64,000 nt of DNA, taken from NCBI RefSeq assembly GCF_963675165.1, contig NC_087385.1, positions 3,720,501 through 3,784,500 of the forward strand, given 5' to 3'. The first letter of the stretch is position 1. Every line of letters starts with the position of its first letter. The DNA comes from Halichondria panicea (Eukaryota; Porifera; Demospongiae; Suberitida; Halichondriidae). Below are positions 9,736-45,411 of the stretch, in pieces. Below the pieces are notes generated by a model. It was not told the DNA's origin, did no database searches, and saw only the letters and a program-made list of their open reading frames with translations. Both the position numbers and the translations under genes were made by a program.

Positions 9736-12700
9736 ATGGTCTTGCAATACTATTTCATCACTTCACTGTTGCTTCTATCACTATCTGGCAGGGCTCATTT
9801 GTCCTCTGATGGATTACAATGGCTGAATGTTTCCAATGCCCTTGAGAGAGGAGCACTCTGTAATGACTTCTCTACAGCTGGATACTTTGTTCGCACTCAA
9901 TATTCACCAAACAAATCAACTATGTCGAGGGGGTGGATAATTTATCTCGAGAGTGGGGGAGGATGTACTACACCCGAGTCTTGCAATACCAGATTCATCC
10001 ATCAGCCCGTTCGTAACAATTATACAAGCACAAAAAACAAAACACTTTTTGTTGATGTTCAACAGGCTTGGGCTGACAACAGGGATAATCCCTTAGCTGT
10101 AACTTCAAGGCTAATGACCTCTCTTTGGAGATTCTCCGAGGATTCTAGACGTGATGAAAGTACCTGGATGGTTGACGGGAGAGGAATTCTATCAACTGAC
10201 CAAATTGAGAATCCAGACTTTTATGACTACAATCATGTAGTGGTTCCGTACTGTAGCAGTGATCTATGGTTGAAGAAAACAAAAGAATTCATCATTGCAA
10301 AGAACAACAGTTTTCGCTTTCATTTTGACCCGAATGCAAAAGACCACCAATTCACATTTCGTGGAGCAGCCATCTTCGTGAGTGTCATTGAAGATCTCTT
10401 TGAACAACATGGTCTCAGCAGCGCAATAGATGTGATTCTTGTAGGTAGTAGTGCAGGGGGAATTGGAGCCATGAATCATGCCCCTTGGCTGAGGAATCAG
10501 CTCCATATCAGGGCAGGACCACACATTACAGTCTACTGTTTGATGGACTCCTCTTGGTTTATTGACTTCAGAGGCAGTATTCGAGATCAATTTGCCCCAG
10601 ATGAAATACTACCTCTTATCGAAACAGGTGAAGTTGTGGACTCTTGTCGTGATGTATCCGATGATCCAAGTGTGTGTATATCGTCACTCTATTTCCTCAC
10701 TCACTACAAGGACCTTCTGAAAGACATTCCAACATTTGCTCTGTTCAGTCGATATGACTTGTATCTTCTCATAAGCTCACTGCAGCATGTGGACATGGAC
10801 ATTTTAGAAATCATGCGAATAGTCTCAGAATACAGCGGCAGCATGAATGCCTCCCTGTCTGCTGTTGCTACCGAGGTGCCAAACCTGAGTTACTATGTCA
10901 CTTCATGCTTCCAACATGTGTATTTGGCGACATCTACGCTGTGGGGAGAGGGCGGAGTACTAGGTACTGCTGGGATTGATGGGGAGTTGGAGAACAACCG
11001 ATTTGGGTAAGTGAGATTTTATGTTGAATATGTTGACCTCAACAGTCTCACTGCATCGAAATGAACGGCATACACTAGCCTATATGATTATAATTATACT
11101 AATGCTCATCATTCTATTTGATATACGTATATATATAGGCACATAATTTCAAGTGAGGTGTGGACAAAATTCCACCTGGAGCATCTGAACACTTCTCTGG
11201 TGTTGGAACACATTAGCATTCAGAAAGCAATCCATTACTGGCTTGAGGCTGTGAAATCAGGGTATGTGATTGTGTCAGTGTGTCAAAAGTGAAAGCAACA
11301 GACAACACTGCATTCTAGTGCATTAGTATGTTCTAAAGTCCTTCTTTGCATGTACGTGTACAAAAGCAGAATAAGTTGAGTGGAAGTTCTGACTATTCGT
11401 ATGAATGTAGGCGTGATAGCCAGCACCATGCATGCATGCCTATATACCAGTGAACCAATACAAAATTAAAACGTTCCCACGGACGGGGATTCAATTAACC
11501 CGAGACCTTCTGCGTGTAAAGCATAATTATGTGCTATACATCTTGCAGAGATTTACATATTCTATAATTATAATGTTGTTATGATATCTTTTTATGATCT
11601 ATACACAGACTTAGTGTGAGGTACCATGACCAATGCAGTGGCCCTCATTGCAATGTGCAGTGCCCAGAGACAATTGTACTGGGGGAGAATACACCCTACT
11701 GGGAGGTGGAGGTGAGAGTCTGAAGGAGCTAGCAACTTTGGTATGCATGCATATGGATCTATACTGTACCATACGTCTATATAGCATCTTTGGTCCACAA
11801 TTACTAATCTCGACAGGGCTAAAGTATTCCATTGTGTCCTTCATAAATCCACCTTCGAATAATTATACCCACACACTGACGCACAGGCCCAAGCAGTTCT
11901 TCTGGCCATTGTGGTGTTTGTGTCTCTGTCCTGTGTGGTAATGAAGGTACTGTTGAGTGTGAGGGCATACTACCACAGTCGCAATCAAAAGCAGTTTGTG
12001 GAGTGGAACCGTAAGGGGCTGGGTGACAATTCAGAGTCAGCTGTGAGTCTTTTCATTGGGCATGTTAAAAAGAACTATGCACAACAGCGGCTCAATTTGT
12101 CTTTTGTACAGCTATATGTATGACTACATACGGTTTTTGTTTTATAGCTGCCGCAATGCAAGGACATTGATGCCATTTCTGTTGCCTGTCTCAATCTCAG
12201 GTATACGTATATACCGCTATTGCTGTATAGAAAGCTAGAGCATAAATTATGTTATATGTATTGTACACATGCATGGTCTCTACATGCTTGTAGGTTGTTT
12301 AAAAAAAAAAAAAAACAGGTGTGTTCTCATGCAACAATACAATTATGAGGCTCTGGTTTTTTTTCTAACCACATGTCCAATGTGCAGGTACTCAGTCACA
12401 GTGAAACAGATGGATCTGAAAAAGGTATCTTCTCCAGCTCAGCGCAAGCGACTCCTTTCCCTAGCAGCTGCTGACAGTGAGTCTGGGAGGATGTCGAGGT
12501 GTGAGGCTGGTGAGGATGAGATGCAGCAGCTGGACTCAGACTCTGAGGCAGATCTGACACCAACTACTGAGACTGAAGAGAACGGTACACATGTATTATA
12601 TGCGTATACATAAATTTCTTCATTGTGTATTTTACACATGCACCTCAATACATTCATAAGCAGTCGTACGTATTACAAAACCCATGTGATTTCTCTTCTT

Positions 12701-15700
12701 CTAGATTTTGCCAAAAGCGTAAAACAGTTTCAGCAGATGCATCACAATAACAAAAACAAGCAAAAAGGACGATTCAAAGGTAGTCTACATGGTAACGAGT
12801 CGTCAAGAAAAAAACGCAAGAAGGTTATTCTTAAAGGGATCACAACGTACTTCAATCCTGGAGAGTTGGTGGCTATTATGGGCCCCTCAGGTATACCGAC
12901 CAATCAAACAAAATTATGTGATGCGTTTATTTTCCAGGTTGTGGTAAGACTACTTTCCTGGACTTACTAGCTGGTAGGAGAAGTGGACGAGACAATTACC
13001 AGGCACAGTTCATAAACACGTCTTACAATGAATATTATGGACATTGCATGTCCAAGCCAGGCGCCTGAAACGCTATACAATTCCTATACAGTGCATCCCT
13101 TAGGTTTCCGAATGTTCATTAATCTAAACTGTCCTATTGATAATGCACGTAATAACAAAACATCACTATAATCGGAATGGGTCCCAGTTGTTAATGACAG
13201 GGAATTTTCTTTATTAATTATGTGCACACTATCTATGCGTAGCATCTATTATTACTCTCCCACATGGCAATTTATGTGATTGAAATGCAGGGTGAGATCT
13301 ACATAAATGGCATCTCAATGGATGAGATTCGTGACTGGTATGTGGCTAACACTGGGTACGTCCTCCAGTTGGCAATGCCCTATTATGAGGAGCTCACTGT
13401 GAGAGAAAACGTGACACTGGCTGCTCAGATAAGACTTCCAAAGAGTTTGTCTGTGGAGGAACGATTTGAGAGGGTGGAACAGGTCATGAGAGAGGTGAGT
13501 GCAGTTTGTGGAGGGTACATAGTTTATCCTAATTCTACTCATGAAAAATGTAGCTGTATACCTGCATTGGCCACATTGTAATTCCCTTCACTGTATAATA
13601 GACTGGTCTCTACTCATTGGCATCTACCGTGGTGGGTGGTGTCACCGGTCCAGGACTCAGTGGAGGTCAGAAGAGACGACTATGTGTAGCTCTTCAACTG
13701 ATCAACATGCCCAGCCTCATTTTTTTAGATGAACCAACATCAGGTGAATTCCTAAACATGATATCTGAAATAATTATAGCAAGCACTTATTGGGTATTAT
13801 AATTTAAGACCTGTCTGCGTGTGCTGACTCTGGAGTGAATATAGAGTACACTACAGACCATTTTACACAGAAACCCTGAAAGGCTTTTTTCTATACATGC
13901 AGGCATACTCTGTATACATGCATGTCTTCAAATAGCCCCGATTCCAGGCCGTGAGGCAAAAAGTTTCGTTACCTCAGGTCTTGATGCAACCTCCTCACTG
14001 GAACTTTTATCTCATCTGCACCGAGTGGCCAGCTCCAACAGAGCAGTAGTCCTCACCATCCACCAGCCACGACTTGAGATATTTCATATGTTCGATAAAG
14101 TTATTCTACTCTGTCAGGGACAGGTGAATTATGTGTGGTGAATTATTTAAGGCCTAACGGCGTGCAGTCTTATCTTCAGCACCAAATGCTGACGACTATG
14201 CACTATAATAGCTTATAGTAATTGTAATTTTACCGTTCAGATGGCATAGCTGATTAGAACTATGTATTTCGTCAGCCAAACACAGGTATAATAACGTGAT
14301 TGATATAATATACCATGAAATAATTATATATTAAGGTTCCGTTGCTTTACATGCAGATAGCATACCATGGGATTCCAGACAAAGCGTATGAGGTGTTCCT
14401 AGAGGCTAACCAAGCCGAGGGCAAAAAAGTGGACTCGCTAAAGTCCAAAAACCCTGCTGGTAATTTACATTATACGTTGCCTCCTCGATGCGTATAACTC
14501 TCAATCATTTTTCCCACTCTACAGATGCCATCATGGATATGCTGGGTAGTGAAGAATCTCGTGCATCCATCTTGTCCTACTACCAGACAAGTGACGAGCC
14601 AGAGGCAGTGGAGAATGCTATAGAGGAGGTCCGCAATGTGGGTAGGGAGAGTGTCTCCAGTAGACAGGTCTGGGCACAGCGGTAAGTTATATAGAGCACC
14701 TACCGCATGAGTGTGGCCTCATGAGAAAATGAAGCTCTCTCTTGTCCTTGTGCATAGATTCAGTACTTAGTGCAATTGCGAGTGTTTCAATGAATATCAG
14801 TACTCGGACAAAATTAATATACATTCATTTTTCTTGCATTTTTCGATTAAAGCATTTTAACTTGTATTTAGTGCACCTACATTATTAATTGTTACTCCTC
14901 TCAGGCCGCAACAGGAGTCTGGTGTCCTGAATCGATTGTCTTGCCTGGAGACCCGTGCCTCAATGAGAGCTGGTCTGGGACAGGTACTTTACTTGCCCCT
15001 CATCTTCATCGTCTATGGCCTTCTACTAGGTATGTATGATTGAAGGTGTGAACCTATTTCGCAATGGTATGGTCAGTAGATGTAAGCACAATTCTACGTC
15101 AACTATGTGTGGAATTGTGTAACAGTTAGTTGGCTGCTAGATATACTAGATACCCAATATCACACCATGGTCTTGATTCACACCCAATCTGGCGTGCAAA
15201 CAGGCACGGTGTATATCCAGACCACCAATCCCACGTTTATTTTGTCTGGTTATGGAGTGTTCAGCTGTGCCAGTGGTCTCTTCATGTTCCCCATCGTCTA
15301 CACCTATCTTTACAGGGCTTTAGAGGTAAGGGTGTGCCCTCAAGGTTTATGTACGTAAGAGATACTTAGGCTGGGTTTATCTTGCCGATAGCGATATTGT
15401 TATTTTTGTATGACTCTGGCGAACCAATTGTCATGCATACAAAAATTATGTGCAGATATTCTCACTGGAGTATTCTGATGGTGTGGGCAGTCCCATTGAG
15501 TTAGTACTACAAACTTTCCTACGATTTACGTCCTTGGCCCTCCTCCCTAATTTGGTCTGCTCCACAGCCATCTACTTCCTGGTGTGTCCTCACTTTACAT
15601 GCACCCATGACACCTTCCACCCATTCGTGTACTCTCTATATTTTTTATTTAAGTATAATGCTGGGCCATTTGCAGTCACACTGTATAGTCACATTTATAC

Positions 15701-18700
15701 ACATTTATACCTACTATACACCACACAGGCGGTACCGTACTCCAAATACGACCCTTGGGTGTTTTCTCAGATCACAACTATTGCCATCTCCATTAACCAT
15801 ACCTGGATTGCTTTGGTGATATTTGTTCTTACTGCACAACCAGGGTTTGCTCACAGGATATCTCCAGTGCTCAGTGCCATCGCTGGCTTTGCTGGGGGCT
15901 TCTTTGTACCCCCTAAACTCATGCCCCCCTGGTGAGTAGTTAGTTACTTCTTATAGCCTTAGTCTTCTCTATATAGCATAACTACTTTTTTTTTTCTGCG
16001 TTACCACTTCCATTACATATGTATGTGTGTCTATTAACTGCTTGGGCCACCTGAAAACATGGAAACATACAATGCTGGTATAAAAGCATGCATCCTTAGG
16101 GCCGACTCCTTTCATTTATTGTTGTGTGTGTGTATAGCCATGCACCTCTTTTATTTATGGTTGGAATAAGGCAGCCACTCTACAAGTGATAGCTACTATG
16201 TCGTGTCACTATCACATTTTGTACCCCCACAATAGAATTAGGCTATAGGGAGTGGGCGTTGTGTTGATTGCATATACATAATTATGTGCTGATGTACGTA
16301 GTTGGGTACGATGATTGGTTTAACCTTCGGAGGTTATAGCTCTTCTCTCATAACACAGCTGGCCAGTTGGTCTAGTGGTATGATTCTCGCTTCGGGTGTG
16401 AGAGGTCCCGGGTTCAACTCCCGGACTGGCCCTCTTTTTCTTTTGCATGTGTGTGCATGTAAAACTATAGTATCGCTTAATACAAAGGGGAAGAAAGCCA
16501 CTTAGCTCTATACAAGCAATAAAATCCCCAACTATCTTTATTGGTTGGAGTTATGGAGTAGACAACGTCGCCGCCCTTGACCGTTGCATGAAAAAAGGAC
16601 CGGAATGGAGCGTATCTACGGCGCAATAGTACGAACTTTTTTAAATGGGTGCTCTGCCATTAGATAAATTAAAGTGGGTTTTGGCCATGTCTCTAGTCAA
16701 TTAGCATGCACACTCTGATTTCTACGAGCAGAACAAAACTATAGATCGACTTGATTCCCGTCCTTCTTCCGTGGCAACAGTTGAGGGCGGTGGCGCCTAT
16801 CTAGATATGATTGCACATCAGTCATGTCGATAGATCTATACAGCCAATTGTACATACGGAGGCTGACAAATCTGGAATCATACAGAGCTGGCCAGTTGGT
16901 CTAGTGGCATGATTCTCGCTTAGGGTGCGAGAGGTCCCGGGTTCAACTCCCGGACTGGCCCAGAGTCATTTTTTGATTTTCAACGTGATATTTTATAAGC
17001 ACAGGTCATTATTATAATAATAAAATGTTGCACTAGATATACCTTTACCTTTCCATGTATTGCATCCTTAGCTAATAGACTCACCTCTTGCCTCATATGT
17101 ATAATTATAGGTACAGTTGGTTATTCTATATCAACCCAAATTACTATGGGTTCTCTGCAATGGCTCGGATTCTGCTCCAAGAAATTGAACTGGGCTGCCA
17201 GTACCAGTCCCCCATAGAGTGCTATCCCTCCTCCAGTGCCTACATCCTCACCTACTTTGACCTGCACACTATAAACCCTTACCTTAATCTATTGGTGAGC
17301 ACTTGTGAAGTACGAACATGACTTAGTTAGTGTATGTGTAGATCTATACAGATATGTGCTTGTCTGTCAAAAAGACTCTACCTTAAAGGTACAGACGGGT
17401 AGTAATTTCAGATTTTTCTTTGTTTTTTTAGTGTACCAGATTTGTACCAGATTTGCACACAATATTTGTCAAGTATGAGATTTAAGCATTTTCATAAAAA
17501 AGTTTTAATGAGATTCATTATTATCAGCGCGCACATTAGCAAATAATTATTAGTACCCTAATTATGCTGTATAATAAGTTTCAGCTATAATTATATATGC
17601 TATGCACTTTTACTTTGCAGGTGCTGCTTACAATGACCGCTATTTTCCTAGGGCTAGCTTGGCTTTCTCTTTCCTACAGACATTCTTACATTATGTCTCA
17701 TTTCAAGAAACTTTTCGCCAAAAAGTAAGTAATTATGTATTAGTTATTGCCAGAGTGCAACATGCCATATATTGCACTGGAACAATATAATGCCCGAGGG
17801 CATTATGTCATCCAGTGCAATATATGGCAAGTTGCACGAGGGCGCCTGCAATAACTAACTTGTTGCCCAATGACGTTAAACTCGTCTGACTGGTCATATA
17901 AATCGACATGTGTTTTGAAGGAATTTAGTGTATTCATTAGTTTTGCTGAATTCCATAGTAAATTTTTAGGTTTTCTTCCACTAAAAGTAGTAGCCTATAA
18001 AAGGGACCACATGAGTTATTGGGTGGGATGGTGGGGCATAAGTCCCAAATGGATATCTTTTAAAGAAGTCTCACACACTTACAATCCAGTGCAATATATG
18101 GTAGCCATGGCAGTGATGCAACATGCCATATACTGAGCACTGGATTGCTTTGATCTGCCCACTCACTGGGCAACAACAACTGATATGTACTGGCGTATGT
18201 GCGTACATGTTCATCTTCTTTTAATCTCTTAGGAACAAAAGCTCTACTAGCTCAACAACCAGTAAATACAATCATCCCAAAGATATTCTCACTCCCAGCC
18301 TCTCCATGGAATCCATCACTCTCAACCAAGACAACATTACCGAAGAGTTCAAGAAGGTCACCATACAGCCTGTTAGGAGACTCTCCCTCTCAACTAGTGA
18401 TCTCAGTGTTGATGAGGTTGGAATAATGACTGAGAACAGGAGATTTCGACTACGAAACAGAATAACTGTCTCTCGCATGCTTCAAGATGGAGAAAAGCAT
18501 CAAGTGTGGACTCCTGGAAATATTAGCCCTACCAAGACAGCATCACAGTCATCTCAGGTTAGTTGTAAATAATTATCCTGATTTTGTCATCATCGACATT
18601 CTAGAGCTATCCCATGTTCTATCTATAGAACATGGGATAGCTCTAGAATGTTATATAGCTATAAATTATAGCTATATAGTACTGGTTCTTTATACTTCTT

Positions 18701-20705
18701 GTGAGTAGTTTGGTCACTTTAAGTAATGTATATAATTATTTACATGTTACATAGGCTTCTCTTGAGGAGCGCCGAAGGACACTCTTTCAGAGGATTAAAA
18801 CGGTCCGTAGTAATTCCAATAATAATCAGCCCAAGCACCCCCCCAAAAAGGGTGCCCTGAATGTCCCGTGTAGGGACAATATTGCTCGACGAATTGCTCA
18901 GTGGAAGAAGATTGAGGAAGAGGCAAGGAAACTTAAAGAAGAGGACAGTGAAGTAAGTACTGCACTATACCTATATACACGCATGTGAAGTATGGGCACC
19001 CTGGAGTGTATACATGTGTGTGTGTGTGCGTGCGTGCATGTGTGTGTTTTACCTGAATATTATACTAAGAGTAACTGGCAACGTACACTGTTCAAGTACA
19101 ATTTGTGTCATCAGGTTAATACATGCATGTAACTCCACCTATGATCCTAACTTATCCGATTTGCCACCCACTGGCACCACTCCCTCTCTTCAGCCATATT
19201 CTTCACCCATGTCTCCACTCATGTCGTCTGCGTATCTTAACTCGAATAAACTCCCAAAGGGTCCTGAAGTTAGCACTGAAAAGACTGCCTCTTGTCAAAC
19301 ATTGGGGATACGGAATCATGTTGCCTCTGTGAATGGTATCGGCAAATTGCCGTCTGAAAAAGCACATAAACAATTAGCTGTTGAATCAACGCTATCTCAA
19401 CCTAACCAAGCGCAGTATTTCATCTTTCCTGAAGTTCTGGGAGAGCTGACAACCAAGGACAGTCATTGTGTAGACACTCCCGATACTGGTGGTGCCCGAA
19501 ACTTAAGCGCATCATCTGGGACCAACTCTATACCTTTGTTTCATATGCACAATGTATTAAACGTTCAAACACCTCAGGGCATAATCACCTCCACTCAATC
19601 TCCACATCCTGTAAAGACTCTGCCCGCCCACACAGGACAAACGGAACACACAGTTACTAACAACCTATATACAGTTCCGGGGTCCCCATTGGTTTTCACT
19701 GTTCCACCTCAGGAGACAAGACGTCACAGAAGCAATTGTACCCCTGTAATGGACTCTATCATTGAAGAAACCAGTAGCGAAGCTTCTTCGCCAAGTAACA
19801 GTCTGTCTGAATCGAGAGTTCTTCCACTGATGGAAAACGAAGAGATTGACATGGAGGAGAGGAGCAGTGAAGACTGTGGTAAATTGAGCTCAAATGGAGT
19901 ACAAATCACACCTTTTAAGAGAGAAGAAATCGGCACCAATGATCATGATGAAAAAACCCATCTAGACCACTTCATTGATTCCAACAGCTGTTTTAACTCT
20001 AAATCTGCACTTTGTTCGATGGGATGTATTCCACACACTATCCAAGATATTATCACTACTGTGGAAAAAGCACATCAAGATGACACCATACGATCAAGCC
20101 ACATCACTGATAGGAACAAAAAAGCAGTCATGGCAATACGTCAAGACAATGTACCAATTCCTGAACACAATACTGATTCAGAATCTCACATTTTGAGCTT
20201 TCCATTCACTCTAGAAAAAATGAGCAGAACGTTGGAAAAATCTTCTATATTGCAGTTAAAAGAAGGCCTGCATTTGAGAAACTCATCTCCTAGCGAAAGC
20301 AGAAAACATAGTGAAAAACACAACAAAGTGCAGCCACAACAAAGGCAGCCACTGGCCCTCAGCCTTCACAAAAGAGTAACCACCTCAAACCCGTCTACTC
20401 AGGAAGTAACGAAACCTCAAAGAGGAAATATTGGCACTGGACTGAAAACCCAGGAAACGTACCACACAAAGCACAACATTAATCTCAAGCCAATTCCTGT
20501 TTCCAGTCCTACCAACAATCTTGTGATCCCGTCTCCCAGACAAAGCAACTTTCAAAATGATGCTGGTGAAATTTATCAGCAAACAAATGACTTTACCACT
20601 ACTCAGTTGATTTATGTGGCCAGATCCCCCACAAGCCAGTCTAACGATGTTAAAACTCAACCAGAGGACGTCTCACACATCCACTACCAACAAACTGACT
20701 TTTAA
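9736..20705 (+). CDS. NOTUM-type carboxylesterase fused to an ABCG half-transporter
   Basis: 22 exons: 9736-11006, 11139-11261, 11609-11711, 11887-12042, 12148-12200, 12388-12584, 12705-12890, 12938-13002, 13291-13494, 13602-13743, 13978-14123, 14357-14459, 14525-14681, 14905-15029, 15204-15325, 15456-15581, 15729-15931, 17111-17294, 17621-17724, 18233-18557, 18755-18952, 19194-20705; one frame, 1934 aa. Signal peptide 1-20. NOTUM/pectinacetylesterase fold to ~430 with [14 protein letters not shown] (Ser239), Asp341 (SRYDLYLL) and His394 (SCFQHVYL), an apparently intact triad. Cys-rich linker, then TM about 500-525. ABCG nucleotide-binding domain: Walker A GPSGCGKTT split by an intron, Q-loop GYVLQ, signature LSGGQKRR, Walker [12 protein letters not shown]-loop TIHQPR. 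About six TM helices, then a 678-aa Ser/Thr-rich tail. Expected topology: esterase outside, ATPase and tail inside. Substrate unknown. Junction exon phases all agree, but no transcript is available. Confidence 0.82.
16361..16432 (+). tRNA. tRNA-Pro (anticodon CGG)
   Basis: A 72-nt cloverleaf without intron: acceptor GGCCAGT (16361-16367) pairs with ACTGGCC (16425-16431), discriminator C; A-box TGGTCTAGTGG and B-box GGTTCAACTCC are present. The anticodon stem CTCGC pairs with GTGAG through one G-U, with loop TTCGGGT and anticodon CGG at 16393-16395. A T5 run at 16435-16439 is a pol III terminator. The gene is in the sense orientation inside an intron (15932-17110) of the esterase-ABCG gene. 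Confidence 0.95.
16890..16961 (+). tRNA. tRNA-Pro (anticodon AGG)
   Basis: A 72-nt cloverleaf differing from the copy 529 bp upstream at only three positions: one in the D-loop, the first anticodon base (AGG at 16922-16924) and one stem base that restores a G-C pair. The body closely resembles animal tRNA-Pro. A T6 run at 16969-16974 acts as terminator. Same host intron and orientation. Confidence 0.95.
17756..17836. repeat. Palindromic element with TGCCATATATTGCACTGG arms
   Basis: The arms GTGCAACATGCCATATATTG... and its near-perfect inverse enclose a 20-bp perfect palindrome (ATAATGCCCGAGGGCATTAT). A decayed relative with the same arm motif lies at about 18083-18146. Both are in one intron of the esterase-ABCG gene. 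Confidence 0.6.
18597..18650. repeat. Perfect 26-bp-arm hairpin
   Basis: Arms 18597-18622 and 18625-18650 are exact inverse complements (CATTCTAGAGCTATCCCATG...) separated by 2 bp, in the intron after exon 20 of the esterase-ABCG gene. Confidence 0.75.
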
Positions 20706-28200: not shown

Positions 28201-31200
28201 TCCTGATTTCCCTAGCAACAGACGAGGATCATGGCGTTTAAAAAGTTTTAAAAATTGTATTGATGGCTGTTGTGTTTGATGTTACCCAGATGAAAGGAAT
28301 TTACACTTTTGCATTTTATGGAAGGTCACATTGCATGATGTGCACCAGCCTAATTTTGAAGTGTAGCCTCAAAAGTGGTGCTAATCTCCCCACAATCTCT
28401 CTTGCTAAGCAGCTCCTCTGTAAACAGCCAAGTGTGGCCCCACTCAAATGAAGCACTACAACAGCCTGGCTAGCACTTGTGATAAGCACTTTGACCACTC
28501 ATCCTGCTAACCACACAACCAACAGCTGCCAAGCACTTCACTTGGAATGCCACTTGAAAATTAGATCTTGGGGGGGGAAGGGGGAAGCATCCATCTTTCA
28601 AAATAGCTATAAGGTTTTACATGTAAGTCCCATGAAGTTCATCGGAGCACTGTAAACTAAACTAGCTGAAGACTTTTTTGTGTAGTAGTTAATTTGCAAC
28701 TCTACAACTGTTTAGCCCAATGTACTACATTGGTTGGCTGATGCTAGCAATGTGGTGCTAATTGGCACACCTGCTGAAGTTTGCACTGATAAAATTGTGC
28801 TGTGTCAAACCACTCTTTCATGTGTGCACTACTGTTTTCCCATGCCTCAGGTATTCTGTTCCTTGTAGATTCATTGTGCAATTTGTTTCATTGTTCTTTG
28901 TGTGTCTCTCATGGTTAGCGGTTAACGTGTTTTATGCCTTCCTACACATCCATGTATCCACCCGCTGACACCCTCCGCCCCTTCTTTCCCACACACAGTC
29001 CTCCCCTACTTCAACGAGTACCTCCCGACAGAAGTTCTTGTTCACATATTCTCATTCCTTCGTGAGCGAGATCTGTGTAGAATAGGCCAAGTCTGTCAGA
29101 GATTCCGACAAATCAGTAACCTGGAGTCACTCTGGAAAAACCTTTTTCACCGTGTGTTTGATATGTGTGAAGCGTACATCCCTCCCACCCCCTTCCCCCA
29201 GTCATCCTTCACTAAGGGAGATGAATCAATGGACTTTTCTGACAGTGGCGAGACACTGATGCCCTGGAAAGCACAATTTCAAACAATGGTGAGAGTTCAT
29301 GTGTACTACATGTATGTGGAGTGTGAACGTACTGGAATAAATGCGTGTAGACACGGGGTGTGGGTCCTAGTGTACTATGCAGGTGGGTAAGAATTTATTG
29401 ATGTGCATTGTGGAATGTTGTAATGTACACACTGTCAGTGGTACATGTCGGAGATCAGATGTGCTTTGCATGATGTGTGTGTGTGTGTCAGCCTCTCAGC
29501 ACAGCTGAATGCTCCAAGAATGTCTCCGATACTTTACCACACACTCTTATGAAAGTAGGAGCAGATATGACAATCATTTAATCTGCAAAAGTTTTGTCAA
29601 TAGAACCCTCCCCTGTGTAGCCTTCGAGTCTTCACTGATAGATCCAGCTACGTGTACGATTTAGGCATTGTAGGGCCATGCTTTTATAACACGTATAATT
29701 ACATGTACATGTTAGGCACAATCTGTAGAATTTGTTGTAATTACACGTACATGTGTATGTCCTACATGACAACGACTTGTACGTGTTTCAACACATAAAA
29801 AAAAAAAGAGAGTGTATTATTTCATTGTGTACCTATAATTATGCAGCACGGTTGCTCCCATGTGTACCAAGAGATGGCAATATTGCCTGAAGACCACCCC
29901 CTCCGACAAGAAGCTAAAGACACAAAGGTAAGTGATAAATACTATTATCGTAAAATGGTTGCCCTGTAAGAAGTCAGTGTAAGTACAACCAAACATGACG
30001 TATGATTGGCGAGCAATTAGGTACTCTATACTACCTTCCCTCCCTCGGTACTCTATTTACATTTTTGTTTTCATGCACCCCCAGTGGCAAGCACTGACTA
30101 GTCCCAATTGGTTGTTGGCGTTTTCGCCAGTTGATGCCATATGTTGCCGACTTATACTCATTAGTGACCTAAGCTGCTAATTGGTGCTTCAAAGCAATCG
30201 TGATTAGTAGCCAAATAAAGATTGATTAGTGGTCCACATTCCCCACAGCTTCATGACTTCCTTGTAATTTTTACCCACCAGAGACGAAGAATGCTAGTAC
30301 ATGTACATGTGTTTCCTGGGTGTATTAGCCACACATTCATTCCTTCATTCCCAGATAATCAAATTAGATACATCTCACCCACGTAGTACCGTGTGTGTCC
30401 CCCACCTTCACACACACACACCCCCTCACCACTCTCTCCCCCCCCTCACGCAGTATTACGCCACAATATCCGATGCGATCAGAGCGTCTTCGAAGTGTGA
30501 GCCCACCAGAATCATAATCCACCCCGCAGTATACAATGAGAACATCATCATAGACAGACCAGTGCAACTTATAGGATCAGGTAAGGCTACATGTATGTGG
30601 TCTTAGTGTGTCATTCTGTTAGTAGATTGATCATTTTATGTCCACTGAGCATGCACATAGTCTCGTTATTATTGCATTTGTTATCCTATTGAACTGACAC
30701 CATCAATTTACCCCCCTCCCCACAGACCAGACAGTGCGGCTCGTCAACTCCTCCCAGACAGTAGTGGAGATCACCTCCCACACAGGCCAGGCTGCTGTCT
30801 GTAACTTAACCATTCAGGTGAGTGTTGTGTGTGTGTATGCCCTTTGTATCTTTTAGAATAATGATCTTTACCTACATCTGTGTCCCTTGCCACACACACT
30901 CATACCTACCACACTCCACATCACACACTATCATCCCCTTCCACGCACGCCCTCACAGTTTGAAGCCCCTGAAGATTCTCCCAATGTCCGACACTACTGC
31001 CTGCGTATCTCGGGTGCCTCTGAGCCTCACATTCATCACTGCTCTTTCACCAACAGCTCTTTCTGTGGGTCGTGTATCTATGTACACGGGGAGGGGGCAA
31101 AGCCACTCGTTTCTCACTGTATGATAGCCAGAGCCAACAATGTCGGGATATTTGTGGACGATCACGCACAGGTGAGTCTTGTTCATTCTGTGCACAGCAT

Positions 31201-34200
31201 ATTGGATTTGCGTGTGCGTATGTTACCTTACATTCAGCTATCTGTGAACTTATAAATGCTGTTGGTTGAGTCTCTTATCTATGTGTATACCTACTGTATG
31301 TGCTTGTGTACACTACACACTTGTACAATTCCCAATGTACATGTACACACATTGCCCCGAATTAATTCGTAATGTAGCACTTGGGCAATACCTACATCTT
31401 ATATAACTTTACCTTCACCTCACAACTTGAACTGTACTGTAGGGTCGGTTTGAAGAGAATGATATTCATCGGAACAAGCTAGCTGGAGTGTGGATCAAGA
31501 ACTACGCTAGCCCAGTGTTCAAGAAGAACGAGGTCCATCATGGCAAGGACGTAGGCTTCTTCATCTTTCAAGATGGGCAGGTAACAGCTAGCTCCTAGTT
31601 ACTGGCCTCGTACAACTATTTTACTGCATCTTTCAATTTATGCTCTAGTACTCACTTTGATCTAAAAACTGTTTCCTTCATATTGTTCTTTACGTATAAA
31701 CTAAGGCTCTATTGTTCCAATAAGTACTTTATATATATGTACCAATTTGGCATTCACTAGCTGTTGACTGTGTGTAGGGTTACCTGGAGGAGAACGACAT
31801 CCATAGAAACAGAATAGCAGGTGTAGAGATTAAAAATGATGCCAACCCCATTATCGAACGGTGCACCATCCACCATGGCTCAACAGGAGGTGTCTACGTG
31901 CACGATAAGGTAATGTGTGGGAGGGGAGGATTCAAGTACATGTACTTGCTTTGAGCGCATGACAAGTGTCAGTATGTTGAACACTAAGTGGTTTATTGGA
32001 GTGATGTGACTATTGCACATAAATAATTACAATCCTTTATTCCCTACATGTTAACCCTAACCCCTACTGTAGCCATTAATCACATATAACACTGTACCAT
32101 TTTCACTGTCATCATTTCTCTGTACAGGGTCGAGGGCAGTTCATTGACAACAAGATATACGCCAACACGTACGCAGGTGTGTGGATCACAGGTGAAAGCA
32201 ATCCTACTCTCCAGAACAACGAAATTCATGGTGGGATGCAAGGAGGCGTATACTTCTTTGCTGGTGGGCGTGGTGTATTGGAGAACAATAATATCCATAG
32301 CAACACGTTGGCGGGTGTGCAGATACGCACAGGGAGTGACCCTATCATCAGGAATAACAAGATACATCACGGCCTCCACGGGGGAATCTACGTAGTGAGT
32401 TAATTGTGATGCGTAAATAGTTTGAATCATGGAGCCTAATCCTCATGTATGTACTGTACATGTTTAGCCACTTGTTTTAATGATTCTTAGCCCATACCAC
32501 CATCCCACTGCAAGTGTGCTGCATAAGAATTTACTGCTCTCTCTCTCTCTCCCTCTCTCCCCTATAGCACGATAGTGGACGTGGTCTGATCGAGGGCAAC
32601 GAGATTCATTCAAACGCTTTAGCTGGAGTGTGGATCACCACAGGTAAACACGTAGTTTTGTCTATGTGCTTACTGGTTGTAGAGCCACTGTACAAAGTAG
32701 GCTGAGAGTAATGTCTATGTGTTGCTTTGCATTACTCACCCCTTTAGCCTAGCCCCTAATTCCCCCACGCTCACGTACAATAAACTGCTCTTGCCCCCCC
32801 TGCAGGTAGTCAGCCCATACTCAGACACAACCGTATTCATAGCGGCAAACAAGTCGGCATCTATTTCTATGACAATGGGGGCGGAGTTTTAGAGGAAAAT
32901 GACATTTACAATCACTCGTTCTCTGGAATCCAAATCAGGTATGTGCCTGCGTGTGAAAGAGTGAACATGTGGGGGTATGTATTATGGTGTGGGGGTGAAA
33001 GTGCGTGGGTAAAGCATTATAGGATTGTGTTGTTTTGTTGGGCACAGGTATGTTCAATGTTTTAGGCGTCTTATGACAAATGTTATATTTTCCACAGAAC
33101 TGGCAGCAATCCAGTCATCAAGAGAAACAAGATCTTCAGTGGTAAAAATGGTGGGGTCCTTATCTACAACTCTGGGGAGGGTCTTCTGGTAGAGAACGAC
33201 ATTTACGGCAATGCCCTGGCCGGAGTGTGGATCAAGACGGACTCAAACCCTATCCTGCGGAGGAACAAGATATACAACGGGAAGGAGGGTGGTATTTGTA
33301 TCTTCAACTCTGGACGTGGCGTGCTGGAGGAGAACGACATCTTCAACAACACTCTCACAGGTGTGTGTACAAAGATGTTGGTTTTTGGGGTGTACAGTAG
33401 AGTACATGTACGTCTGTGAGTAACACTCTTTCAGTTATGAGCAGCCACTTATTGTGTATGAGGACTGTCGGTCAAGTTTTCATTTAAAATTGTAGGTGCT
33501 CTTTGTGTAGATGTTTGATGTTTGTCGTTTAGGTCAGCCTAAGCCTCTGCTGCTTCTGCTACAGTATATATATGCAAGCATTTTCACCTCTTCACTATTT
33601 TCCACCTGCAGGTATTCTCATCAGCTCTGCCAGTCAGCCTGTACTGAAGAAAAACAGGATATTTGGCGGGAAGGCCGCAGGAATTGAAGTGACAAATGGC
33701 GGGGGTGGTGTCATCGAGGAGAATGAGGTCTTTGATAACTATTTTGATGGGATCTGCCTTGCCACTGGCGTCAGCCCCACACTCAAAGGTGAGTGCAGAC
33801 ATGTGTACAAGATTGCATGAATTGAGAATTAGTAGTGAAGTTGATTTTGGATACTCATGGTTAGATGGATGTGCAATACATGTATGTATCAACCTTACCC
33901 TGTTCCCCTCTTTTCCACAGCTAACAAAGTGTACGACAACAGGAGAACTCTCGAGGATGCTATCAAGCTGGGCAAGTGCCTCTACTCCGTCAGTGGTGAC
34001 AACTCGTATCCCATGCACGACTTCTACCGTTGCCTCACCTGTGAGAGCTCAGAAACAGACGCCATCTGTGTCAACTGCATCAAGAGCTGTCACAAGAACC
34101 ACCAAGTCCAGTTTGTTAGGCACGATAGGTGAGCATACAGTTGTAGGCACGTCTGTAGTTGTTTGAAGCACCAGCTCACACTAGATAACAGTTTAATCAG

Positions 34201-35341: not shown

Positions 35342-38300
35342 CTAGCTGACAGTTGAGTCATGAACTAGTTGAGGTACAGGGAGTTCTGAGAAGTAACCGT
35401 GGGCGTCTTTAACCTTGTCCATTCGGATATTGTACACGGGGTGGGTTGGCTTCTGTGAGTGTGTGAGGAGAACGTTGCATGTGTATTGTAAACTATATAC
35501 AAGGCCTTAATAACGCAGCAAAAATTAAAGCATAAAAATTGTGGTTGAAATCAAGAGGTGGTATGCTAAAGGCTATCTACAGGTGTATAGCAGCCAAAAG
35601 ACAATAATTATACTAGTCATGTAAAAATGCACAAGCACTAACCTAAAAAACCTTTTCTATCGTCAAAACAAAGACATTACCGCAATGTCTATGCCAATAA
35701 GAAGTATAGGCACTGTAGCAATGGAAGCAACACACAGTTTTACCCGGACTGGCAAAATTGGCAACATCCCAATTTGAGAAAGGAGTTACAGTGCATTAGT
35801 TTTTTTACCTATATACGAGTTCATCGTTATAAATCCGTATAACTATACATCATTATACCGGACAAAAAACACTACAACATGATCAATGTTTACAAGTAAA
35901 CCTCCTTCTCGATAAAACAAACCAATCACTCGTGTAAACGGGACTATACACTCACCAGGACTGTCTCTGGGTCTAGTGATATGGTGACGGTGTTGCTAGT
36001 ACCGTAGCAGTGCTGGGCCACTGACAATCCACTCAGACAGTAGCATGTGTGGTAAAAGTCCCTCATTCTGTGGGTGACAGAACAATTGCCATTGAGAGCT
36101 TTGTGTATATGACAGTATTAGCTATCGGATGTGACCACTACAAATATTAATTTTACTGAGTGTTTTTATAGTGCCACTATACGATATACAGGTAGTAAGC
36201 TTAAATGCATGTCAGTGGTGAAAAATGGTGCAGACGACACAAATCTCACAGCCACCCCGTACGACAGGATTACAGGAATGCGCACGGAGGGGCGTTATAT
36301 GCTGGACAAAATCCTTAGTGTCAAGGCAACTGTACTATGTGTAGTGCATAGAAAGTCAGCACACACCACTAGAATTACTCACTTGCCCGGCTTGTCGATA
36401 AGTCCGCCATGAGGACTCTGACAGCAGTAGAGGATGTACTCCTGGAGTGCTTCTTGGTTGAACATCCACAGCTCACAGTCGAGGCTAGTATCTCCTGGGG
36501 GTAGAACAAAAACAAAATTTATAAGAAGGACAAGAATAATCATATGGACTACGTATGTGCACATAAGCGCATGTACATTACATGTAGTTGATACTGTTCT
36601 TGTTCTGTAATCTAGCTCAGGTTACTAAGCCGAGGACGATCAGAAAATCGATACGACGTGTACTGTACAAACAAGGAGTGTTGTAGAGAAGTACAGGTTG
36701 CAATTAATATACCTCTTTCTTTCAGTGTGTGGTATATGAGTGGGAACACACCCCCCTGCCAGAATGAGTAGCAGCCATCCACCAACTTGTTAGTCCGACC
36801 CTATGTGGAAATAAAGTGATACTACACAGCACAATGCTGGCCAGTATATAGTGTCGCAGTACCTGGAATCCACCCTCCAACTTCATCTGTTTCCTACAGA
36901 TCCACCTCTACGAGCAGTAAAGATGTTAGCTATGTCATTGTTAAGGTCAAGTGTACACACACATGCTACCATTAGATTTGCTTTGCTGTACAGTTGGTGT
37001 ACTTAGAATTGCAACTAAGGTAATTTTTGTGCTTTGAGGGCAACATTTATTTTCATCAAGTAAGAACATGCAGCTGAAAAAAACTGTTACAGTGCCATAT
37101 CATACCATTAAAGACCTCATGTCCACCAATTTAGTAGCCTTCAACAACACAGCCGCAGCAAAGCCACAGAAGGTGTAGCCTCCGTGAGCCTCAGTCCCAG
37201 GGACGGCCGAGAAACCACCCTCGTAGGTCTGACAACTAGACACCCAGCCCGCAGTGGCCAAGAAGAGGTCTGTTGTCAATGTGTTGGTGAGCATGGCGGC
37301 CACTAGAGCACAGTAGGCTCCCCTGCATGTGTGTAAGGGGGGATTCATTAACATTAAGTGTGAATAATTTATGGCCTAATAGTTGCTACTAGAATTAGTC
37401 TTGTAGCCGGCTATAGTTGCAGTAGGTGATGATATGTATACTACGTACATGTCGGCACACAACATGTACATAGACTGAACATGATCATCTTTTAGCATTG
37501 CATTTTTGCATTGTCCATTATGTACACATGCAACCACTAGTATGGGATATAATAATAATCATGGCTGCACACATACCAATGGTCACATGACATAGATACC
37601 AGATAAACACACAGAGCTATAGCTAGCTAGCTAAATCATGGCTAACTTGAACAAAAAAACCATGGGCTACAAGTGTGAGTTTTTCGACAAAGTTCCGGAA
37701 GACTACTTCTGCAAACAGTGCCAAAATGTGGCAAAAGAGCCAAACATCACTAGTTGCTGCAAAAAATGCTTCTGTGAGTCCTGTATAAAAAACAACGGTG
37801 CCTGCCCATTTTGCAAACAAGACGGAGTTAAAGCAACAAAAAATCCAGCTTTTGAAGCAAAATTCAAGCCCTTATAGTTCACTGCACAATGAAGGATCAT
37901 GGCTGCAACTGGACAGGACAGCTGCGGTACCTTGATACGCATTTCACGAAGGAATGCTTGATTGACAGAGTCAAATGTGACCAATGTACAGAAAATGTAC
38001 CCAAGTACAACCTGAATACACACCTTGCCAACGATTGCCCTGAAAGAGAGTTTAGCTGCAAGTATTGCAACTTCAAAGCAACGTACAAGATAGTGTCTGA
38101 GCAGCATTTCAACATATGCACATACTACATTCTGAATTGCCCCAATGGATGTGGGGCACATTTCGAGCGAGGTGATCTTGAAGACCACACGAAGATGTGC
38201 AGCCTTCAAAAAGTCCAATGTGAGTTCAGTTATGCTGGTTGTGAGACTGAGTTTATACGAGACCGGCAAAAAGATCACATGGAACAAAACACACAGAAGC

Positions 38301-41300
38301 ACCTTGCCTTAATTGCAGCAGCCCTGAGATATCAACAACAAACATTTTTAAACCTACGAAACGAAGACACACAGGAAAGGGACGAACAGCATATCAGGGA
38401 TGACCAGAGTGCTCAACGGCAGCATGCACCGGGCATCAAAATACAGCGTAAGTATACGAGGAGTGTAAGAACAGAGTGAGAAAAAGATCAAAACAAGTGG
38501 AACAAATTCACGAACAAGAGGAGCAGATACATGTACAGCACCAGTTACAAGCTGATGTGGTAGTAAATCCCCAAGAATTGAGAAATCGACCATATTCTAT
38601 TTCAAAGGTGCTGACTTTAATAGCACCGATATTGCTGGCAATTTTGTTAGGGTTCCACTTTCAAAGCCTGTTAAACACTAATACCAACACGCTGGAAGGC
38701 AGGGAAGATATTGGTCAAAAGGACAAGCTAAATACGTTTGGCCTAGAAATTGTGGAATTAAAAAAGCTAGTTGAACAGCTAAAACCCTTACAAAAAGCAC
38801 CCGAACAAGAAGGTAGAATATCCAGGCTTGAAGACCAGATTACGGAACTGCAACAGTCAATAAAAGACTCTATCGATGAATTGACACAAACATTTAATGA
38901 ACACTCTAATACTCAGGATACTCTCGGTGATATTGTTCAAGAAAAAAACGAAGAATCAGAAAAGAGGATTAGCGACATGGACAGCCTAGTTCAATCTAAC
39001 GACAGGAAGATTCAAGAGCTCTTTGTAATCGCAGGAGGTATGGATGGCTTAAAAGATCGAATTTCAATTCTACAAAAAAAGATTATTGAGCTTGTTGATA
39101 AAATTCTGTTACTAGAACAAGGATTAGGGGAGTTGAAACAAAAGGTAAACGATATTCCTAACCACCCTCCACACCACCATCATAAACACCACGGCGGGAG
39201 GGGAGGATGCCATGGACACCACTAGAGCCGGGCACTAGACATTGGCACACATGATACCTCAACTATTTACGTAGACTATTATTAGTATATAAATGGTGAG
39301 TGCAATATGGGATTAATAGCACGAGTAACAAGCACTGGCAAGGCTACTAATTGCATGAGGCGTAGTGCTTGTTATGAGTGCTATTAATCCCTGATTTGAT
39401 CCAATTTGATTGCACGAGTAACCATACTATTGATTTCTAATCGTGTATAAAGAAGTTCTCTGCAGTTTTATTAACATTTTCACCTGCGGCCGTTATTCGA
39501 AAAACAATACGTTGTAATTGCACGCTGTCAATGATGACGTGAAATTACTGGACCAGATGTGATACGAGATTAATTGCTGCACATAGTCACTAATAGTATA
39601 GCACATATCAGAGGAGGTCCAACACAATCACGTGATCCAGTTTTCTTGTTATATACATTCTTGTTTTTACATTCATTTCCCATGTACATGTACATACCGG
39701 TGTGTTCGCTTTATCAGCATGCTACAAAGCTTGGAGACATGGCTTTATATACTCGATAGGTATTGGGGTGAGCTGACGTGATATTCACTATTTAATTTTG
39801 TCACTTTGTTCAGCCGTTTAGAACACAAAGAAGCTACAACAACAACTTTAAACCTTGCTACTTGTGTACAATATTATATCTGTATACCGAAGTGCAAAAC
39901 AACTCTTGTTTCTTCCTTCTGTTTTCCTTCTGTATTGCACTGAACCAAGAGTTTATGATAGAGAGAGAGTATCGAACGTAGGCATACTGTACATCAGATG
40001 TATGCGGAGAGTAACGTGACTTCCTGTATCTGTCACAAGCTTGGAATTTGCACACTGACCAATCCAAGCGTGGGTGATGTAATCTATCAACCCATCCAAG
40101 TGTGGGTGATGTAATCTACTTTCTTGATAGATGACATCACCCACACTTGGATTGGTCAGTGTGCAAATTCCAAGCTTGTGACAGATACAGGTAGTCACGT
40201 TACTCTCCGCATACATCTGATGTATATACAGTATGCCTACGTTCGTATGGCGCGCCGTGTGTTTCAATAACAATGTCTGCATGTACATAATTTATAGGCG
40301 TGTCCTGGTGTGAATATACCGAGATAGCATGCACGTGCAATGATCGCCTTATGCAGTGATCATGTCTGCACATGCAACCATTAGTCTCTGCGTGTGCAGT
40401 GATCATGTCTGCACATGCAACCATTATAGTCTCTGCGCATGCAGTGATCATGTCTGCACATGCAACCATTAATCTCTGCACATGCAACCATTAGTCTCTG
40501 CACATGCAGTGATCATGTCTGCACATGCAACCATTAATCTCTGTACATGCAGTGATCATGTCTGCACATGCAACCATTAGTCTCTGCGTGTGCAGTGATC
40601 ATGTCTGTACATGCAGTGATCATGTCTGCACATGCAGTGATCATGTCTGCACATGCAACCATTAGTCTCTGCACATGCAACCTTAACCATTAGTGTCTGC
40701 AGTGATAATAATTATAATTATGTCCTTTTTCTTAGCTGATTTTGCGACTCTCCATATGTGCATGCGCAGTAGAAGTTTGCCCTCGTGGCTACGTGTTGTG
40801 AATGTTTAACGTTTGAAAAAAATGTGTTCCAGCCGAGTACTTCAATCAGATTCGTCTTCATCCATGTCCATATCATCTATATATCCATCATTAATTTTTA
40901 ATACATCTTTGATACACGTGCTTTAAATAGAGCTGCTGCATCAGGTCAAAGTATATGTTTCTCTAATGGGACTCAGGTACACCTTTAGCCTCGAGACCAG
41001 GCCGATTAAAATACGTATTTTAATCGGCCTGGATTCGAGGCTAGTATATACACTTAAACGGCCGGTACTGAGGCTGCAGTCCATGCTATGAACCTCGCAT
41101 TTAATTCTAAAGAAGAAAACGCGGTACTTTTGGTCGATGCTAGCAATGCATTCAACTCTCTAAACCGCCAGACGGCACTTAGAAATGTCAGGGTCCTCTG
41201 TCCATCCATTTCAACCATTCTCATTAATACTTACCGCCAGGACACGGAACTGTTCGTCGATGGATCCACTCTGTTATCCCAGGAAGGCACCACCCAGGGT

Positions 41301-43024
41301 GACCCATTGGCAATGCCCATGTACGCCATCGCCCTGAAACCCCTAATGGACAGAGTTAACCAGTCCGTAGAAGTCACCCAGGCATGGTACGCTGATGACG
41401 CTGCTGCCACTAGTGACATCCCTGCTCTTCACAGATGGTGGGAGGAGCTGATCAACATTGGCCCTGCCTATGGATACATGGTCAACGCCTCCAAAACTCA
41501 TCTGATAGTAAAAGCCAGCCAACTCTCAGAAGCCCAAACAACTTTCGAGGACACACAGATCAACATCACCACAATTGGGAAACCACACTTAGGATCCCCT
41601 CTTGGAAGCCAGGAATTCACAGAGTCATTCGTCAGAGATAAAGTGCAGACCTGGTCAGAGGAACTGAAAAAATTGTCGATCATTGCGAACACCCACCCTC
41701 AAGCCGCCTATGCCGCTTTCACCCACGGCATTGTAGGCAAATGGACCTACCTAGCGAGAACCACCCCAAACATAGGCCCACTATTACAACCACTGGAAGA
41801 CATCATAAGGACAAAATTACTACCAGCCCTGTGTGGAAAAGCAGCCCCCAATGACTCAGAAAGGGACCTGCTGGCACTTCCAGCTAGGCTAGGTGGAATA
41901 GGGGTCATCAACCCAACAACTCTGTCAGACTCGGCCTACTCTGCCTCCAAACAAATCTCTGCGCCCCTCTACAACCTCATACTAAATGGAAGTCTGAACT
42001 ATACACACGCGGCTCTCACAGAGCAGTTTACTGCAAAGTTAGAGGTCAAAAAAAGAAAAAGGGAGCTCAACGTCACTTCTGCCGACCAGCTCAAGTCAAA
42101 TCTACCACCTAACCTCCAACGAGCTATGATCTTATCCCAGGAAAAGGGAGCCTCAAACTGGTTAACAGTACTACCAGTGGAAGAATTTGGCCTAGCACTG
42201 CACAAAGGTGCCTTCAGAGACGCACTAGCACTCAGATATGGATGGCAACCCAATGGCACCCCAATCACATGCGCTTGTGGCACCAACTTCACAGTGGAAC
42301 ATGCATTATCATGTGCAAAAGGCGGCTATCCCTCCATAAGGCATAACGAGATCAGAGACTTCACGGCCAACCTCATGTCAGAAGTTTGCCACAATGTCAC
42401 CATAGAACCACACCTACAACCCATCACCGGCGAAATTCTATCAGGTGCATCTGCCAACACACAAGATGGTGCCAGATTAGACGTGGCAGCAGATGGTTTT
42501 TGGGGAAGCAGGTTTGAGAGAGCATTTTTTGATGTTAGGGTGTTCAACCCGTACGCTCCCTCAAACAGGCAACCGCAACTATCCACAACCTACCGCAAGC
42601 ATGAAAACATAAAGAAGAGAGCCTATGACCAACGAATCAGAGATGTAGAAAACTCAACCTTCACTCCCCTCATCCTGTCAAGTACTGGGGGCCTTGGACG
42701 TGCCGCTACCTCCACCTACAAGAGACTGGCGTCTCTCCTGTCAACAAAATGGGATCAGCCCTACAGCACCACCATGGGATGGATCAGATGCAGGCTGTCC
42801 TTCTCTCTCCTCAGATCAGCCATCATGTGCATTAGAGGGGCCCGATCAAGCCAAGGGCACGCCACCAGACAGCCCCCAATGGACCTAGTGACAAGCGAGT
42901 CCCTGGTCCCACCACACCCATGAACTAACAACACTTGACTTATTTGCCTGCATGGTTCCTCATTATTATTATTATTATTTTGTACATGTAATTCTTCTTA
43001 GCCCCGAGATGGGAGAGCTTTTAC

Positions 43025-43066
<42 letters not shown>

Positions 43067-45411
43067 TAGTACACCTTGGGTTCATGATCACTGCATGTGC
43101 ACAGACTAATGGTTGCATGTGCAGACATGATCACTGCATGTACAGACATGATCACTGCACACGCAGAGACTAATGGTTGCATGTGCAGACATGATCACTG
43201 CATGTGCAGAGATTAATGGTTGCATGTGCAGACATGATCACTGCATGTGCAGAGACTAATGGTTGCATGTGCAGACATGATCACTGCACACGCAGAGACT
43301 AATGGTTGCATGTGCAGACATGATCACTGCATAAGGCGATCATTGCACGTGCATGCTATCTCGGTATATTCACACCAGGACACGCCTATGTACATGCAGA
43401 CATTGTTATTGAAACACACGGCGCGCCATAGGTTCGCTCTGCTCTCTCTCTAGCTCTATCGTAAACTCTTGACTGAACTAAAGGGCGACTTATATTCGAA
43501 GCTAAGTACTATTAGGAATGTAAACCAGTAAACGTATTCACACCACTTCCTGTTGTACCTCCTATGGCACATCATGTGTGTCTTATGATTATTATGATCT
43601 TTTCCTACTTAATAATTATTATTATTAAAATGGCTACCTCTAGATCTCAAAACCAAGCTGCTGTTGTAGGCTATGAGTGTGAGTTTCTGGACCAAGTTCC
43701 TGAAGAATACATTTGCAGGCAGTGCAAACATGTAGCAAGGGAACCTATTATTGTTGATTGCTGCAATGAGACCATGTGTGAAGCTTGTGTTCAAGAAATG
43801 ATGGAAGACAATAAGCCATGTTCAAACTGTCAAAAAATACCTGTCAAATATATCCCCAATAAGATAAAAAACAAGATTCTAGATCTAAATGTTCGCTGTT
43901 CAATGGCAGCAGAACGGAGTTGCAAATGGACAGGACAACTACAACAACTTGATGAACACTTAAGCGACTGTGAGTATGTCGACACAAAGTGCGATCAGTG
44001 CCAAAAAAGCATTCAAAAACGTAATAATTTTATGACTACACACCTTGCCAACGAATGCCCTGAAAGAGAGTTTAGCTGCAAGTATTGTAATTATAAAGCA
44101 ACGTACGTACTAGTGACAGAAGTACATTTTAAAAACTGCAAGTTATACATTCTGAATTGCCCCAATGGATGTGGGGTACATTTCGAGCGAGGTGAACTTG
44201 AAGACCACATAAATATGTGCAGCCTTCAAAAAGTCGAGTGTGAGTTCAGTTACGCTGGTTGTGAGGATAAATTTATACGAGGCCAGCAAAAAGATCACAT
44301 GGAACAAAACACACAGAAACACCTTGTCTTGATGTCAACTGCTACTCTGAGAATTAGCCAAGAACAGCAGCAAGCTAATAAGCAAAAGCTTCAAGAACAG
44401 GAACAAGCATTCGATCAGAAGCTTCAAGAACAGAAACAAGCCTTCGAACAGAATCTTCAAGAACAGAAACAAGCATTTGAGCAAAGGACAAACAGATTGA
44501 AAAAGAAACTAACTAGTGCCACCAGAAGCCTAATGTCCGAATACATTCTCCTTATCTCCTTATCTGTTCTGATCATTGCATGTGCAATATACTATGAACA
44601 AGGAGTGGGAAATCTACCAGTAGAAAATGATCAAACACTGAAAAAAGACACCGAAAAAAGCATTAAAGCAATGAAAAGCGAAACTGAGAACGATATTAAT
44701 GCACTGAAAAAAGACACCGAAAAAAGCATTAAAGCAATGAAAAGCGAAACTGAGAACGATATTAATGCACTGAAAATGGAAACTGACGAAAGGATGGAAG
44801 TAATGAAGAGCAAAACTGACAAAACTGATGAAATTACCAAGAAAATCAATGTCATGCAAAGGGAACACGAGAAAAAAATTAATGCACTGAATGCACTGAT
44901 TATTCAGAACAATAAAATTAATATACCTCTGGCACCTGTTAAAACAAAAAAATTTAATGACGATGAGAGAAAAAAAACAGGGTTTGTGGTTGTGGATTGG
45001 ATCATAATATTAATATTATTAATGTTTATGGCTTCCAAGTTACTTGTAATGCTTTGTGGTTAGTAGACAATATTAGTAGACAATATTAGTAGACAATACT
45101 CATTTTTGTAAAAAGAGGCCCTGCGCATCTCTGTTCCTTTATCTGAGTCTGTTATTTTATCATGAAACTGAAACTCTGTCAAATTCTATTTGCTTGTATG
45201 AAACCTTTGGTTTCAGAGTCTTCTTTATAATAGTTATAGGCTGAGTCCATTTGAGACCCGAAGGCCCGAGGGTGCTACTAAGGGCCTGAGGGTCTCATAA
45301 TCCCATGTAACCGCTGGACGAGGCCTATAACTGATCTTAGAAAATGCTTGTAGTAATTTAATTATTAATGCTTATTATGCCTCAGTGTGCATGCTCAAGC
45401 GAAGTATATGG

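Follow-up and report, generated by a model that had tools for sequence, protein, structure and literature searches.

NOTUM is a secreted, single-domain enzyme that strips the fatty acid palmitoleate from Wnt, and the half-transporters of the ABCG subfamily (ABCG1, ABCG2, ABCG5/8, white) work as dimers. To our knowledge, few ABC transporters carry an extracellular enzyme as part of the same protein. By analogy, the nearest design appears to be that of the Dictyostelium proteins TagA, TagB and TagC, reported to combine a protease with an ABCB transporter and to act at the cell surface, where they process a developmental signal (PMC3743828); presentation of the surface protease domain of TagC is reported to depend on ABC activity (PMC3743828). 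Here we describe a gene of the sponge Halichondria panicea, termed gene A, which very likely joins a NOTUM-like esterase to an ABCG half-transporter in a single chain. It lies in a stretch of 64,000 nucleotides (assembly GCF_963675165.1, contig NC_087385.1, positions 3,720,501 to 3,784,500, forward strand), hereafter called the window, and two paralogues, genes B and C, share its design. As in the Tag proteins, a hydrolase and an ABC transporter are combined in one chain, the extracellular placement of the sponge esterase being deduced from a signal peptide and a transmembrane helix. The Tag proteins pair a protease with an ABCB transporter, whereas the sponge genes pair an esterase with an ABCG transporter; the likeness is one of design, and kinship is not expected.

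Gene A occupies positions 9736-20705 of the window on the + strand, to which all its exons described below belong. Rebuilt from the DNA, it comprises 22 exons and 1934 codons with no internal stop; its acceptors are all AG and its donors GT, except for one GC after exon 8. The predicted product runs from a signal peptide through a NOTUM/PAE-type esterase, one transmembrane helix and a complete ABCG half-transporter to a tail of 678 residues (amino acids 1257-1934). Pfam detects PAE (E = 1.1e-38), ABC_tran (1.6e-26, residues 677-833) and ABC2_membrane (7.2e-9, residues 1004-1181), all above cut-off. By itself, this gene is compatible with either one gene or two, because three introns lie in the critical stretch.

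The distinction is provided by the paralogues. In the source genome (131 Mb, 39 contigs), the PAE profile has ten matches at five loci, three of which continue into an ABCG domain without a change of strand. These are gene A, gene B (27 exons, 1882 residues, + strand, from window position 62877 to C9:3799728, beyond the window) and gene C (contig C7, from C7:1588341 onward), the last two with the same domain order as gene A. All three models were made by hand from splice consensus and homology, that of gene C without its 3' end. In gene C, the esterase, the transmembrane helix, the first strand of the nucleotide-binding domain (NBD; strand identified by eye), an insert and the Walker A motif are all encoded in one uninterrupted exon of 1936 bp (L009:3556-5491). 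Its 645-residue translation, taken directly from the DNA, is recognized by the PAE profile at 3-322 and by that of ABC_tran at 605-640, each above cut-off. Among the best 60 of its 76 PDB matches, NOTUM aligns at 8-188 and ABC transporters align near the end, including ABCG25, ABCG1 and ABCG5 within 591-642. The open frame spans 696 codons; when the 10-kb locus was simulated 200 times with a first-order Markov model, the longest frame reached a median of 122 codons and a maximum of 225.

For gene C, fusion at the gene level is settled, and for genes A and B it is very likely, judging from shared order and homology. In all three, PAE, ABC_tran and ABC2_membrane score above their Pfam cut-offs, gene B having been scanned over the first 1371 of its 1882 residues, without the tail. 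ABC_tran and ABC2_membrane lie at residues 778-933 and 1115-1292 in gene B and at 631-786 and 935-1122 in gene C, and the NBD precedes the membrane domain in every case. That neighbouring genes were merged by a wrong gene model or by misassembly might be argued from gene A, where introns of 175, 105 and 187 bp separate the last esterase exon from the exons of the NBD insert, but with the same order at three loci on two contigs this is hardly credible; for gene C it is refuted at the DNA level, the single exon ruling out a false join of two neighbours. The original prediction, that a NOTUM-type esterase is fused to an ABCG half-transporter, is thus strongly supported by the single exon of gene C and by the three paralogues. 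Its introns at 11712-11886 and 12043-12147, the residues Ser239, Asp341 and His394 and the 678-residue tail were all reproduced exactly on rebuilding.

The idea that PAE and ABCG genes simply tend to lie side by side was considered as well and was rejected, as no ABC match was found at either unfused PAE locus, whether nearby or in the genome-wide search. A tblastn search with gene A found no ABC match up to about 16 kb downstream of these loci (L013-L016), the same search having missed the esterase of one of them, and neither is among the 62 genome matches of an ABCG query (best 61 of 79 candidates scored). For an ABCG pair at C3:7686001-7694000, no PAE motif was found by pattern in these 8 kb. 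The genome searches with the ABC2_membrane and ABC_tran profiles recover the split genes incompletely, and genes A and B are missing from one of them.

In gene A, the esterase is distributed over three exons. Exon 1 (9736-11006) encodes the signal peptide, placed by eye at about residues 1-20, and the greater part of the esterase, including the catalytic triad of Ser239 (in GSSAGG), Asp341 (SRYD) and His394 (CFQH). Exon 2 (11139-11261) encodes a C-terminal part, and gene B shares the intron preceding it in both column and phase. Exon 3 (11609-11711) encodes the end of the domain with a Cys-rich stretch of 11 residues, which aligns weakly with the end of NOTUM (i-Evalue 2.9). The triad is invariant in all three fused genes; its Ser aligns with that of NOTUM, whereas the alignment of its Asp and His extends only across the paralogues and, as judged by eye, to the similar YD and C..H motifs of the two unfused genes.

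The best PDB matches of the esterase domain are NOTUM chains, presumably human and Drosophila, with values of 1.5e-20 for gene A and 1.1e-28 for gene C. Fused esterases and NOTUM have the motifs PYCS[SQ]D, GSSAGG and DS.WF in common. The two unfused genes, pectinacetylesterase-like genes in an animal genome (C9, about 5.261 and 5.747 Mb, - strand), carry GGGWC, YCDG and GCSAGG instead, which we take to be the motifs of pectinacetylesterases (PF03283); these are lacking in the fused esterases, all three of which do match the PAE family. A NOTUM segment, which we take to be human, has five matches in the genome, namely the three fused and the two unfused loci, the best being gene C (2.9e-29), and this search (best candidates scored) found no unfused NOTUM-type gene. 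An unrooted tree of seven partial sequences places the fused esterases in a clade of their own (support 94), apart from a NOTUM pair (95) and the PAE-like pair (100). We file the fused esterases as members of the NOTUM/PAE family that are NOTUM-like yet distinct from NOTUM proper; we do not call them NOTUM because the Trp of its EGGW motif is missing and because they form a separate clade in this small, unrooted tree.

Where NOTUM is a single secreted domain, all three sponge genes add a transmembrane helix and an ABCG transporter. The helix of gene A (residues 503-521, by hydropathy) is encoded with its basic cytosolic flank in exon 4 (11887-12042), and the intron 3' of it is common to gene B in column and phase. 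Exons 5-7 (12148-12890) encode the first NBD strand (by eye), an acidic and Ser-rich insert of about 100 residues and the start of Walker A; the remaining NBD, with Walker A, Q-loop, LSGGQ, Walker B and H-loop, follows in exons 8-11 (12938-14123) and carries the ABC_tran match. Exons 12-19 (14357-17724) encode a connecting segment and the membrane domain detected by ABC2_membrane. The last three exons, 20-22 (18233-20705), encode the low-complexity tail, which is predicted to be cytosolic and in which no Pfam domain was found at E 0.01. Two tRNA-Pro genes, with anticodons CGG and AGG, are situated within intron 17 on the same strand (16361-16432 and 16890-16961, +).

The five NBD motifs are intact in all three genes, and pleiotropic drug transporters, ABCG2, ABCG1, ABCG25 and ABCG5 rank first among the PDB matches of the ABC part. 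The pigment precursor permease model TIGR00955 matches gene A over nearly its full length with an E-value of 3.7e-86, but its 290 bits remain under the curated cut-off of 736; judged by these matches, the gene A transporter is of ABCG type and falls outside the TIGR00955 subfamily. Domain order and the full set of NBD motifs are those of known ABCG half-transporters, to which the fused genes add an N-terminal ecto-enzyme with its transmembrane helix, the insert before Walker A and, in genes A and B, a tail of about 510-680 residues. With the triad intact and the ABC motifs complete, both the esterase and the ABC halves look active.

From the signal peptide and the single transmembrane helix we infer that the esterase would be outside the cell and the NBD inside, as each needs. 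The signal peptides were judged by eye. That of gene A, which had been part of the original prediction, is visible in this way but falls below a hydropathy threshold of 1.6, which only that of gene B passes and that of gene C does not. The charges beside the helix (K+R/D+E), counted over the outer 20 residues and then over the inner 30, agree with this topology in gene A (0/4 and 5/3) and in gene C (1/4 and 7/0). At one hydropathy threshold, the region following the NBD shows 5 segments in gene A, 8 in gene B and 7 in gene C, some of them overlapping and fewer than six of them separate in gene A; each protein would have seven transmembrane helices if its membrane domain has the usual six.

Pairwise identity among the three genes is 35-36% in the esterase, 55-74% in the NBD and 34-40% in the membrane domain. 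Twelve of the 26 introns of gene B, and 3 of the 8 modelled introns of gene C, coincide in column and phase with introns of gene A; of the twelve in gene B, one interrupts the esterase and another falls between the transmembrane helix and the NBD. The simplest reading is that genes A, B and C derive from one fused ancestor. Outside the source genome, two queries gave 51 and 54 pattern matches among prokaryote contigs, none of which was confirmed in either case; 45 pattern matches among viral contigs likewise yielded no confirmed one, and plasmids gave no tblastn match. Introns with a GC donor occur in two of the fused gene models, namely intron 8 of gene A (13003-13290) and intron 5 of gene B (L011:4390-4640). 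A long insert, of about 100 residues or more and rich in Ser or acidic residues, separates the first NBD strand from Walker A in all three genes (12148-12890 in gene A, about L009:5010-5340 in gene C), and could possibly serve as a regulatory loop.

As to what such a protein might do, we favor a mechanism of export and trim, to which we would give somewhat less than an even chance. Each chain would present an N-terminal extracellular serine esterase of NOTUM/PAE type, followed by one transmembrane helix, an ABCG half-transporter with the NBD ahead of the membrane domain, and a cytosolic tail. Because ABCG half-transporters dimerize, two chains would make up the working unit, with a pair of ecto-esterase domains above the exit of the transport path. 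The ABCG part would deliver an amphipathic, ester-bearing molecule, acylated or acetylated, either to the outer leaflet or to the outside of the cell; at the outer face, its acyl group would be stripped off by the tethered esterase. Topology, dimerization and enzyme activity are here taken from knowledge of the two families; coupling of the two activities is plausible given the topology, but that export is coupled to hydrolysis is, like the class of substrate, a guess. In support of this most likely reading, we point to the single exon of gene C, the order kept in three paralogues, the intact triad and ABC motifs, the predicted placement of esterase and NBD on the sides of the membrane that suit them, the introns matched between genes A and B, and the TagC precedent. 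Four observations weigh against it. The stretch comprising the transmembrane helix and linker is just 15-20% identical between paralogues; the helix of gene B has charges of 2/1 outside and 5/10 inside, so that its inner flank is net acidic and breaks the charge rule; an AlphaFold model of the exon-1 esterase, computed from one sequence, has a mean predicted local distance difference test (pLDDT) score of 33.6; and the Trp of the NOTUM EGGW motif, a pocket residue, is replaced by G, S and G in genes A, B and C (ESGGGC, ESGSLC and EGGGGC).

Other functions can be envisaged for the same architecture. Unlikely, though deserving serious thought, is a carbohydrate or glycolipid deacetylase with PAE-like activity on acetylated glycans or glycolipids exported by the ABCG part, for example for the extracellular matrix or for chemical defense. 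The family match to PAE would agree with this, as would the EGGGGC of gene C, which differs at one place from the EGGGWC of the PAE-like pair and at two from the EGGWYC of NOTUM, but PYCS[SQ]D, GSSAGG and DS.WF follow NOTUM and not that pair. We consider it rather unlikely that the proteins act as tethered NOTUMs, which would work at the cell surface to remove palmitoleate from Wnt, or acyl groups from lipidated ligands of another kind, while the ABCG part would serve mainly to place the esterase in lipid-ordered membrane or to clear the fatty acid released. The NOTUM segment does find fused gene C as its best genome match, and the genome does contain Wnt genes, with ten exon matches on C3, C6 and C12. 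In known Wnts, the serine of the CHG motif is the acylated residue, and it is kept at all four Wnt-like places with this motif in the three stretches fetched; there is also one Wntless-like match, weak yet above cut-off (4.0e-6). Against such a role stand the replaced Trp, the position of the fused esterases beside rather than within NOTUM in the seven-sequence tree, by which orthology to NOTUM is not established, and the consideration that tethering does not necessitate a full ABC transporter. A Wnt-deacylase version is nevertheless possible given Wnt genes with the acylated-serine motif and the lack of an unfused NOTUM-type gene in our search. Much less probable than either is that the long protein is made but proteolysis or alternative ends free a soluble or membrane-anchored esterase, the parts then acting separately. 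The esterase with its helix does resemble a complete unit and the linker is poorly conserved, but gene C has no intron between the parts, and no AATAAA or ATTAAA occurs on the + strand of gene A in 11501-12750, which is weak evidence as about 1.2 would be expected at the 0.95 per kb of the window.

A NOTUM-like esterase within an ABCG exporter offers a specific connection, open to experiment, between the export of lipids and their deacylation outside the cell. Should transport and hydrolysis be coupled, the cargo would be expected to match the esterase pocket, which would provide a handle on the hard-to-find substrates of ABCG transporters. The fused genes could also bear on the control of Wnt lipidation outside the bilaterian NOTUM system. 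It is doubtful, but conceivable, that this is an animal without free NOTUM in which NOTUM-type enzymes are present solely inside ABCG transporters, so that a single protein may both take fatty acids off lipidated ligands such as Wnt on the cell surface and handle the lipid across the membrane, unlike the bilaterian arrangement. Both parts are known, and their union is undescribed as far as searched: among the literature matches listed, no fusion of NOTUM or PAE with an ABC transporter is described, subscription papers being mostly outside the scope of that search, and automatic annotations may exist. The main text of a survey of eukaryotic ABC structure contains neither 'esterase' nor 'hydrolase' (PMC4649718).

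Gene B begins near the end of the window, where its first exon (62877-63155, equivalent to L011:877-1155, + strand) encodes the signal peptide and the start of the esterase. Between genes A and B lies a retroelement, recognized by a reverse-transcriptase frame of 621 residues at 41058-42923 on the + strand (RVT_1, 6.2e-10). It is followed by a TRAF-type zinc finger frame at 43516-45063 (+; zf-TRAF 3.7e-11 in 43516-45060), and frames of similar appearance, by eye, are found at 37856-39225 (+). Exons encoding an F-box-like region (by eye) and a right-handed beta-helix at about 28926-33419 (+) recall FBXO11 (Beta_helix 2.3e-20 at 32080-32400). At about 46400-47000, frames with repeated runs of His, Pro, Leu and Asn have the appearance of a tandem repeat, and the GC skew in 46001-48000 is strong, at -0.358.

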